This document shows positions 34,810-38,050 of a stretch of 38,050 nt of DNA, piece by piece. This stretch comes from Deltaproteobacteria bacterium (GTDB lineage: Bacteria; Desulfobacterota; Syntrophia; Syntrophales; UBA8958). A program made the position numbers and the translations under genes. A model generated the notes under the pieces. That model was not told where the DNA came from and ran no database searches. It saw nothing but the letters and a program-made list of their open reading frames with translations. The first letter of the stretch is position 1; every line of letters starts with the position of its first letter. The DNA lies in the NCBI GenBank assembly GCA_029561465.1, contig JAKQIZ010000037.1:1-38050 (forward strand), given 5' to 3'.

Positions 34810-35070
34810 ATGGCGGAAGAAAAAATCGGCGAAGTGGTCAAATTTTTTGCCAAACCCTCGGTGGCGGCGGTAAAGATCGTCAGCGGCGAACTAAAGATCG
34901 GCGACACGATTAAGATTACCGGTCATACCACCGACATAACCGATACCATAGAGTCCATGGAGGTCAATAACCAGAAAGTGGAAAAGGCCGTTCCCGGAGA
35001 CTATATCGGTGTGAAGGTTCCCGACCGCGTCCGTCCCGGGGACGAGGTTTTCCGCATACTCCCGGATTAA
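34810..35070 (+). CDS. Small EF-Tu/IF2 domain II-like beta-barrel protein, function unknown
   Basis: This 86-residue protein looks like an isolated translation-factor domain II. It shows the ordered pieces of that fold: GEVVKFFAKPSVAAVKI, LKIGDTIKITG, a MEVNNQKVEKAVPGDYIGVKV segment and a final VRPGDEVFRILPD. No GTPase domain is present in this or any nearby frame. The start ATG is well supported by AAAGGAGG. It has its own terminator-like hairpins on both sides, so it is a single-gene unit. Similar proteins are usually labelled translation elongation factor-like; what they do is not known to me. It is not a broken tuf: the sequence differs from domain II of the tuf in this window. Confidence 0.82.
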   Translation: MAEEKIGEVVKFFAKPSVAAVKIVSGELKIGDTIKITGHTTDITDTIESMEVNNQKVEKAVPGDYIGVKVPDRVRPGDEVFRILPD

Positions 35071-35128
35071 CCGGCGCCTAAATCGCCTCTAGTAGGTGAT
35101 TAATGTGCATAACAGATGGCGGCGATTG

Positions 35129-35181: not shown

Positions 35182-36471
35182 ATGACGTCTTCCCTTGATC
35201 CCCATTCCTATCTACAACGTTTGACCGCTCTGGGCATCCGCATGGATCTTGGCGCCGTTCGGGCGGCCCTGGAGGCCCTGGACCACCCGGAGTCATTCTA
35301 TCCCGCACTCCTTATTGCCGGAACCAACGGTAAAGGTTCCGTAGCGGCCATGGCGGCCGCGATTCTAGCGGCGGCCGGGTATTCCGTCGGTCTTTACACC
35401 TCTCCACACTTGGTGGATGTCCGGGAAAGGATCCGGGTTGATGGCGAAATGATTACCCAGCGGGATCTGGCATCGGCAATCGGAGAGATTGACCGCTGGC
35501 TTGACGAACCGCTGACCTATTTTGAATTTCTCACGGTTTTGGCAGGTTTTCATTTCCGAAAGAAAAAGATCGACATCGCCGTGATCGAGGTGGGCATGGG
35601 CGGCCGACTGGATGCGACAAGGGTTTTTGAGGCGCCGGTGGCGGTCATCACCAATGTGGCTCGGGATCATCAGGAGTATCTGGGAAAGCGCCTTCGGGAT
35701 ATCGCCACTGAAAAAGCGGCGATTATTCCTGCCGGCGGCATCTGTGTGACCGCCGTCCGTCCTTCCGGCGCCCGGCAGGCAATCGAAGACATGGCGAGGG
35801 AACGGGGGACGGCCCTGTGGCGACTGGGCAAAGAAATCAAGATCCGCCGTCGCCGGGACGGAACCTTTTCCTATCGCTGCGAGGGCCGGTATCGGCACGC
35901 CCTGCCCTGCAATTTGAAGGGAGGGCATCAACGTCAGAATGCCGCGCTGGCCGTAGCGGCGGTGGAGGCCATGGCGGACCGGGGAATCATCGTGTCGGAC
36001 GAAGCCATCCGCCGGGGGTTGGCGGGGGTGCACTGGGAGGGGCGTTTGGAGGTCCTGCACCGCGATCCGGTTCTTCTCATCGACGGCGCCCATAACCCGG
36101 CGGGGATACGAGTCCTTTGCCGGGCCCTGCGGGAGGAATTTTCTTTCCGTCGCCTCATTGTGGTGTTCGGCGTTCTCCGGGACAAGCATTACCGCGAGAT
36201 GGCGGAGAGAATGGTCTCAGTTGCATCCATGATGATTCTTACCTGTCCAGAAAGCGAACGTTCCCTGCCGCCGACGGAGCTCCTCCCTTTCACCGGGGGG
36301 GCGACCCGGGAGGTCGAGACGATCACATCACCGGTCGCGGCCCTCCGGCGTGCCTTTGCCGTTGCCCATGCCGAGGACCTAATTTTGGTGACCGGTTCCC
36401 TGTATCTGGTGGGGGAGATAAAAAAAACTTTCCCTTCCCTGCGAACCATGATAGCTCCCAGAGGGAAATGA
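35182..36471 (+). CDS. folC: Folylpolyglutamate synthase / dihydrofolate synthase
   Basis: FolC adds glutamate to dihydropteroate or tetrahydrofolate with ATP hydrolysis, a Mur-ligase-type enzyme of the cytoplasm. The 429 residues show the P-loop AGTNGKGS (46-53), the SPHL motif (74-77), the central Mur-ligase domain and the C-terminal DGAHNPAG (about 300-307). Length is normal. No good ribosome binding site precedes ATG 35182, so the exact start is a little uncertain; the first in-family residues (HSYLQRL) are close to it. Its stop codon is only eight bases before lptD, suggesting a shared transcript. Confidence 0.92.
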   Translation: MTSSLDPHSYLQRLTALGIRMDLGAVRAALEALDHPESFYPALLIAGTNGKGSVAAMAAAILAAAGYSVGLYTSPHLVDVRERIRVDGEMITQRDLASAIGEIDRWLDEPLTYFEFLTVLAGFHFRKKKIDIAVIEVGMGGRLDATRVFEAPVAVITNVARDHQEYLGKRLRDIATEKAAIIPAGGICVTAVRPSGARQAIEDMARERGTALWRLGKEIKIRRRRDGTFSYRCEGRYRHALPCNLKGGHQRQNAALAVAAVEAMADRGIIVSDEAIRRGLAGVHWEGRLEVLHRDPVLLIDGAHNPAGIRVLCRALREEFSFRRLIVVFGVLRDKHYREMAERMVSVASMMILTCPESERSLPPTELLPFTGGATREVETITSPVAALRRAFAVAHAEDLILVTGSLYLVGEIKKTFPSLRTMIAPRGK

Positions 36472-36479
36472 TCCCCGTC

Positions 36480-38050
36480 ATGCATAGGATGATAACGCTG
36501 CGGCTTCCGGCCGGGATCGAGAAGGCGGGCCACCGCCGGTTCTTCCTGGCAACATTGCTGCTGGTTGTTTTGTTGTTTCCCGGTCCGGCCCGCGGCGAGG
36601 ATACGACCGTCTTGCAAGGATTAGTGGGTGACGAAAAGGGAAATCCCGTCTCCGGAGCCCTTGTAGAGACCCGGGAAGATCCCCACAGAGGGGTGGCGAC
36701 CGGTTCTGACGGGACGTTTTCCCTGGTGGTTCCCACCGGGCAGCGCCGGTTTCTCCTGACCGTGAACCGGGATGGTTACTTTCCCCATTATGAAGTCTGC
36801 GATATTAACAAGTGGGGCAAAGATGCGCGGGTGATTCTTTTATCCCCTTTACCTTCCCCATTGGCCACTGTTTCGTCCCCTCCGGGTGGCAAGGCTCCGG
36901 CCGTTCCCGTGGACATCGAAGCCGACACCATGAGTTATTTCCAGGATAGGGATTCCTACCAGGCCGACGGCAACGTCATCATCCATTATCAAGAAAAGAT
37001 CCTGAACGCCGCTACCGTTACCCTCAACAGAACGACGGAGGAAGCATTCGCCCAGGGGGGAGTGGTGTTGAAGAGCAAGGATGATGTCCTGGCGGGAGAG
37101 CGGGTGAAAATCCACTTTCCCTCCCATACAGGCGAGGTACAGGAAGGAAAGATGTTCATCGCCCAGACTCATTTGTACATCCGCGGCGATCGTATCGAAA
37201 AGAAGGGCGAGGCGACATATTCGGTAGAAAACGCCCAGGCGACCACATGTGACGGAGAGAAACCCGACTGGCATCTGGCGGGCAAAACCCTCGATGTCAC
37301 CGTCGATGGCTACGGAACGATCACCCACGGCAAGTTCTACGCGGGCAAATTGCCGGTGATTTATACCCCTTACCTGCTTTTCCCCGCCAAGACCACCCGA
37401 CAGTCGGGATTCCTCTTTCCCCATCGCCTGACTTATTCCCAAGATAAATTGGGCTGGGACATCGGCATCCCCTTTTACTGGGCCATCTCCAAAGATGCGG
37501 ATGCCACCTTTTATCAGCGCTACATGAGCCAGCGGGGATTCCAGGAGGGTGCGGAACTGCGCTATGCCCTTGGCAGCACCACCACGGGAACCATTTACGG
37601 GGATTTCCTCAACGACAGCAAGGAAGTGACGGAAACCAACGGCAACATCAGCAGAAACTGGAAATCGAACCAAAAGCGCTGGGCCTTCTACTGGAATCAG
37701 GAAACGCGCTTCGACCCCAGCTTCTATTTTCGCGCCGATGTCGCCAAGGTATCGGACAGTTGGTATTTCAAGGACTTCTCTTCGCACAACTACTTCCTGG
37801 ACAATTATGCCGCCGACCGGGTGCAGCCCTTCAAGAAGGTTGCCTTTGTGGGTAACGAGGCGCTTACCTCCCTGGATTCCACGGTGCGCCTCGTCAAGAA
37901 CTGGAAATTGTTCAATCTTACCGCCCTGGTGAAAAACACCGACGATTATACCGTGGCGACCAATGACGGCACCCTGCAAAAATATCCGGAAGTGACCCTG
38001 ACCGGTGCCAAGGCCCCGCTCTTCGGCTCCCCGGTCAATTATGAGTTCAC
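36480..38050 (+). CDS. lptD: LPS-assembly protein LptD (OstA) with extra N-terminal domain, partial
   Basis: LptD inserts lipopolysaccharide into the outer membrane. The frame is open for 523 codons to the window end, so the C-terminal part of the barrel is missing. There is a signal peptide (hydrophobic core 21-35, likely cleavage after residue 39). Residues 43-121 look like a carboxypeptidase-regulatory-like Ig-fold domain (VLQGLVGDEKGNPVSGA, GSDGTFSLVVPTG). After a Pro/Ser-rich linker comes the OstA/LptA-like beta-jellyroll (about 145-265), with TTCDGEKPDWHLAG at its end, and then the start of the barrel with LPVIYTPYLLFPAK. The start ATG 36480 has AGAGGG 14 bases upstream; ATG 36489 is an alternative. 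The identity is firm; the extra domain is a by-eye reading. Confidence 0.87.
   Translation, partial: MHRMITLRLPAGIEKAGHRRFFLATLLLVVLLFPGPARGEDTTVLQGLVGDEKGNPVSGALVETREDPHRGVATGSDGTFSLVVPTGQRRFLLTVNRDGYFPHYEVCDINKWGKDARVILLSPLPSPLATVSSPPGGKAPAVPVDIEADTMSYFQDRDSYQADGNVIIHYQEKILNAATVTLNRTTEEAFAQGGVVLKSKDDVLAGERVKIHFPSHTGEVQEGKMFIAQTHLYIRGDRIEKKGEATYSVENAQATTCDGEKPDWHLAGKTLDVTVDGYGTITHGKFYAGKLPVIYTPYLLFPAKTTRQSGFLFPHRLTYSQDKLGWDIGIPFYWAISKDADATFYQRYMSQRGFQEGAELRYALGSTTTGTIYGDFLNDSKEVTETNGNISRNWKSNQKRWAFYWNQETRFDPSFYFRADVAKVSDSWYFKDFSSHNYFLDNYAADRVQPFKKVAFVGNEALTSLDSTVRLVKNWKLFNLTALVKNTDDYTVATNDGTLQKYPEVTLTGAKAPLFGSPVNYEF

Follow-up and report, generated by a model that had tools for sequence, protein, structure and literature searches.

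N-terminal additions to LptD already have a precedent in the pseudomonads, whose LptD carries an N-terminal insert domain of ~100 residues, with structure and function described as unknown (PMC6372539). Among other outer membrane barrels, SusC has a periplasmic N-terminal domain, the NTE (9hfj and 6ytc), which is flexibly tethered and followed by a TonB box and a barrel for TonB-dependent import (PMC7782687). Upon deletion of the NTE in B. theta, SusC was still made and growth on levan was no longer detectable; the authors proposed a role of the domain in biogenesis or cellular function, possibly in TonB specificity (PMC7782687).

Here, we analyzed a window of 38,050 nucleotides, the entire contig C122 of a draft Syntrophales genome (G000), which ends within an lptD gene (Table 1). 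The encoded LptD has the jellyroll and barrel in common with E. coli LptD (9kn3 and 4q35), and LptA and LptE are present in the genome; however, an NTE-like N-terminal domain is found in the window LptD and not in the E. coli protein. In size, in its restriction to a lineage, and in its position before the jellyroll, this domain is similar to the pseudomonad insert as described in publication. Its fold, its periplasmic N-terminal place on an outer membrane barrel, and its flexible tether are shared with the SusC NTE, but what follows it is the LptD jellyroll and a barrel for LPS export instead of a TonB box and an import barrel. The fold is also that of the transthyretin-like domain of a metallocarboxypeptidase (5aq0), whereas the window LptD has no carboxypeptidase domain. 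No LptD with a CarboxypepD_reg/NTE-type addition was found in the open literature, with subscription papers and preprints outside the scope of the search. For so familiar a machine, the domain amounts to a modest change. It makes Syntrophales a second lineage with an added domain at the LptD N terminus and, since its fold is known, provides an independent and structurally tractable case in which to study the effect of such additions.

Table 1. Features of the lptD region, in positions of the window.
Feature	Positions	Strand	Basis and remarks
folC	35182..36471	+	directly upstream of lptD; folylpolyglutamate/dihydrofolate synthase, named by sequence
lptD, N-terminal 527 codons	36468..38050	+	last gene of the window; Pfam, PRK03761, ORF list
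Signal peptide	36468..36596	+	basic n-region, FFLATLLLVVLLF core, cleavage at about PARG|E; judged by eye
Extra domain, CarboxypepD_reg/transthyretin-like (NTE) fold	36597..36854	+	Pfam, AlphaFold2, structure comparison
PF13620 match proper within the extra domain	about 36612-36788	+	Pfam
Linker, Pro/Gly/Ser/Ala-rich	36855..36896	+	predicted disordered, pLDDT below 50
LptD periplasmic beta-jellyroll (OstA/LptA-like)	36897..37385	+	Pfam, AlphaFold2, E. coli LptD Z 20.4
Conserved Cys of TTCDG in the jellyroll	37248-37250	+	alignment of Syntrophales LptD
Start of the LptD beta-barrel (Pfam LptD_2/LptD)	37386..38050	+	ends at the contig end

The window gene is a genuine LptD. Its ORF scores above the cut-offs of the Pfam barrel models LptD_2/LptD (39.7 bits for PF19838 and 34.9 bits for PF04453) and matches PRK03761, the NCBIfam LptD model, with an E value of 2e-51, at 175 bits versus the 683 bits set for an equivalog, the ORF being truncated; the Pfam LptD_N model gives 16.2 bits, below its cut-off of 20.4. 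The ORF is open at the contig end, and the 3' part of the gene lies on contig C98, which overlaps the window lptD with identical sequence and completes an LptD of 829 aa counted from 36468, or 825 aa from 36480. The former position is the likely start: its ATG overlaps the TGA of folC (ATGA), AGAGGG stands a few bases upstream, and the "MI" start is also seen in LptD of the closest relatives. The folC-lptD gene order recurs in relatives. As this start is 12 bases upstream of the one implied in the original prediction, the CarboxypepD_reg-like segment placed there at residues 43-121 moves to about residues 47-125.

That segment was predicted to be a CarboxypepD_reg domain with an Ig-like fold, in the mature periplasmic part of the protein directly before the jellyroll. 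In isolation it reaches 32.6 bits (E value, 1.1e-7) with PF13620, marginally above the cut-off of 32.3, and within the whole window ORF it stays below the cut-off at 29.6 bits (E value, 8.9e-7). A genome-wide scan with PF13620 found the lptD domain as the sole match in the genome, and the corresponding segments of LptD relatives from other families, taken alone, score 33.3, 36.2, and 37.7 bits. Because the sequence score is marginal, the evidence from the fold matters. With 50 aligned N-terminal regions of LptD as input, the AlphaFold2 model has seven strands in the extra domain, of transthyretin-like (Ig-like) arrangement, with a mean pLDDT of about 80-96, followed by the low-confidence linker and a jellyroll with a pLDDT of about 90; a full-length model of an LptD relative with 83% identity recovered the same parts. 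In structure comparison, the domain model matches the SusC NTE 9hfj with a Z score of 12.8 and an rmsd of 1.8 over 80/80 residues at 30% identity, and 5aq0 with a Z score of 12.4, while the remainder of the model matches E. coli LptD 9kn3. Searched by sequence, the PDB returned weak matches only. Behind the domain, Pfam and the models place the LptD jellyroll and barrel, and a TonB-dependent receptor barrel is absent there. A chance Pfam match is ruled out by the fold match together with conservation. So is a true start downstream of the domain: in the LptD homologues read, hydrophobic, signal-peptide-like N termini precede it, and the next in-frame Met falls within the jellyroll. The original prediction thus holds in both identity and location, and the extra domain of LptD is confirmed as real, conserved, folded in prediction, and placed after the signal peptide.

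The distribution of the domain is narrow. A survey of 155 genomes of the class, all of one order, gave 149 with an LptD match, and the extra domain is present in 15 of these, as befits a module said to be unusual in LptD. Carriers comprise all 11 members of the window's family (f1), both sampled members of family f4, and one genome each in f10 (G019) and f21 (G030); the remaining Syntrophales LptD proteins that were read have a short signal peptide region or different additions ahead of the jellyroll. The proposed architecture thus exists in part of the Syntrophales, and the wider Desulfobacterota did not add to it: in a sample of 395 genomes of the phylum, among the matches listed outside Syntrophales, none reached into the domain, and long LptD ORFs from outside the order, when read directly, have no such domain, a reading that a very divergent copy could escape.

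In a tree of the LptD core, the f1 and f4 members form one clade (SH-aLRT 99), and G019 falls away from them with weak support; the LptD of G030 is too fragmentary for placement. Taken as first obtained, the tree requires three changes for the distribution of the domain. Two or more origins are not a necessity, since one origin for f1, f4, and G019 fits: constraining G019 to f1 and f4 is not rejected (p-AU 0.74), which supports at least one gain and leaves more than one possible. The extra domain is under purifying selection and evolves faster than the jellyroll. Within-genus pairs have a dN/dS of 0.14-0.54 for the domain versus 0.08-0.22 for the jellyroll, meaning that the domain is constrained, but less so than its neighbor. 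Its conserved residues (G, V, D, G, P, T, DG, and F) appear mostly fold defining. Elsewhere in Syntrophales, proteins encoded at L176:1-3507 and L179:1-925 contain several CarboxypepD_reg-like repeats that match a model of the LptD domain, and such repeat proteins are a possible source of the captured module.

Another question is whether the domain altered the disulfides or the partners of LptD. The cysteines of TTCDG in the jellyroll and QCW in the barrel are invariant in the aligned Syntrophales LptD sequences and could form one disulfide pair, which we take to correspond to Cys173 and Cys725 of E. coli. The second disulfide of E. coli LptD (Cys31-Cys724) has no equivalent in the window LptD or in any other aligned Syntrophales LptD, with or without the extra domain, indicating that the pair was lost independently of the domain. 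In each of the eight members of the window's genus, the domain contains a single Cys; its position differs, with three sites in use, two of which are hydrophobic in most other relatives. Since these positions vary and the barrel has no extra Cys to pair with, a fixed disulfide is unlikely, and the domain Cys was rejected as a substitute for E. coli Cys31. LptA, LptB, LptC, and LptE of this genome are ordinary in appearance; the first three are clustered on contig C118 upstream of an rpoN-like gene, and LptE lies on contig C132 adjoining leuS (both neighbors named by eye).

What might the domain do? Since most LptD proteins of Syntrophales lack the domain, LPS export as such does not depend on it. 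The reading we prefer, to which we would give slightly less than an even chance, is that LptD of one Syntrophales branch gained at its mature N terminus a stand-alone transthyretin-like (CarboxypepD_reg/NTE) domain serving LptD biogenesis or contacts within the Lpt system. On the periplasmic side of the barrel, it would act as a tethered protein-protein interaction module, as the SusC NTE probably does. Such a module may aid the barrel during assembly, through BAM, chaperones, or LptE, or alternatively may tune the periplasmic partners met by the jellyroll, LptA or other Lpt parts; the LPS path itself would be untouched. If the domain does act like the SusC NTE, a shared accessory module would connect two unrelated outer membrane barrels. 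A serious rival, with a smaller yet appreciable share of our confidence, is that of a near-neutral passenger, in which a folded module was taken from a secreted repeat protein and persists without any specific partner because the N terminus of LptD admits additions. Its patchy distribution, its faster evolution than the jellyroll in within-genus pairs, the mostly fold-making nature of its conserved residues, and the unrelated N-terminal additions in other Syntrophales LptD proteins all fit a passenger. However, the domain has been kept in 13/13 sampled members of f1 and f4, across LptD identities down to about 45-50%, and its dN/dS is well below 1.

It is also conceivable, and in our judgment improbable, that the domain gates or reshapes the contact between LptA and LptD in the trans-periplasmic bridge, in line with the original prediction that it might modify this bridge; it could, for instance, cover the edge of the jellyroll as long as LptD assembly is incomplete. 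The domain directly precedes the first strand of the jellyroll, and the jellyrolls of LptA and LptD bind head to tail (PMC6164715). Against such gating, the predicted disorder of the linker leaves the domain without a fixed predicted place, the segment before the jellyroll of known LptD reaches the opposite end of the groove by a loop, and no change in LptA length is paired with the domain, LptA having its usual length whether or not the domain is present. Anchoring of LptD to another envelope layer, be it peptidoglycan, a surface polymer, or a sugar polymer, is very improbable. Secreted proteins commonly contain domains of the CarboxypepD_reg type, which would suit an anchor, as would a SPOR-like stretch further toward the N terminus in the LptD of G019; but this SPOR match is below threshold and missing from the window's family, and the Pfam scan of the window ORF gave no match to a carbohydrate-binding family.

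The mature N terminus of LptD has received other additions within Syntrophales. In G019 (L023:2548-3537), the SPOR-like stretch (PF05036; 13.3 bits versus a cut-off of 21) stands N-terminal to CarboxypepD_reg, giving two modules before the jellyroll. Two further genomes, G091 and G092 (L177:1755-2699 and L178:2001-2900), have a different addition with the shared pattern "KRYHLPGM..Y.K...VYF.SE.QAIA.GYYK", to which Pfam gave no match and which appears to us to resemble a cysteine-less Ada-type metal-binding motif. Smithella-like LptD proteins (L129:3153-3698, L136:3686-4249, and L054:3650-4198) have an N-terminal segment ("IKTDSMNGD...VQGKVTVIYKG") that looks like an additional, incomplete copy of the jellyroll start. 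Taking together the NTE-like additions (possibly gained more than once), the SPOR-like and Smithella-like ones, and the pseudomonad insert, one could speculate, with low confidence, that different lineages have repeatedly used the mature N terminus of LptD as a docking port for accessory periplasmic modules, each of which would recruit a lineage-specific factor regulating LptDE assembly or bridge formation. In the window, between rplQ and folC, positions 34811-35071 encode a stand-alone protein of ~86 aa, which by eye is like domain 2 of an EF-Tu-type translation GTPase.
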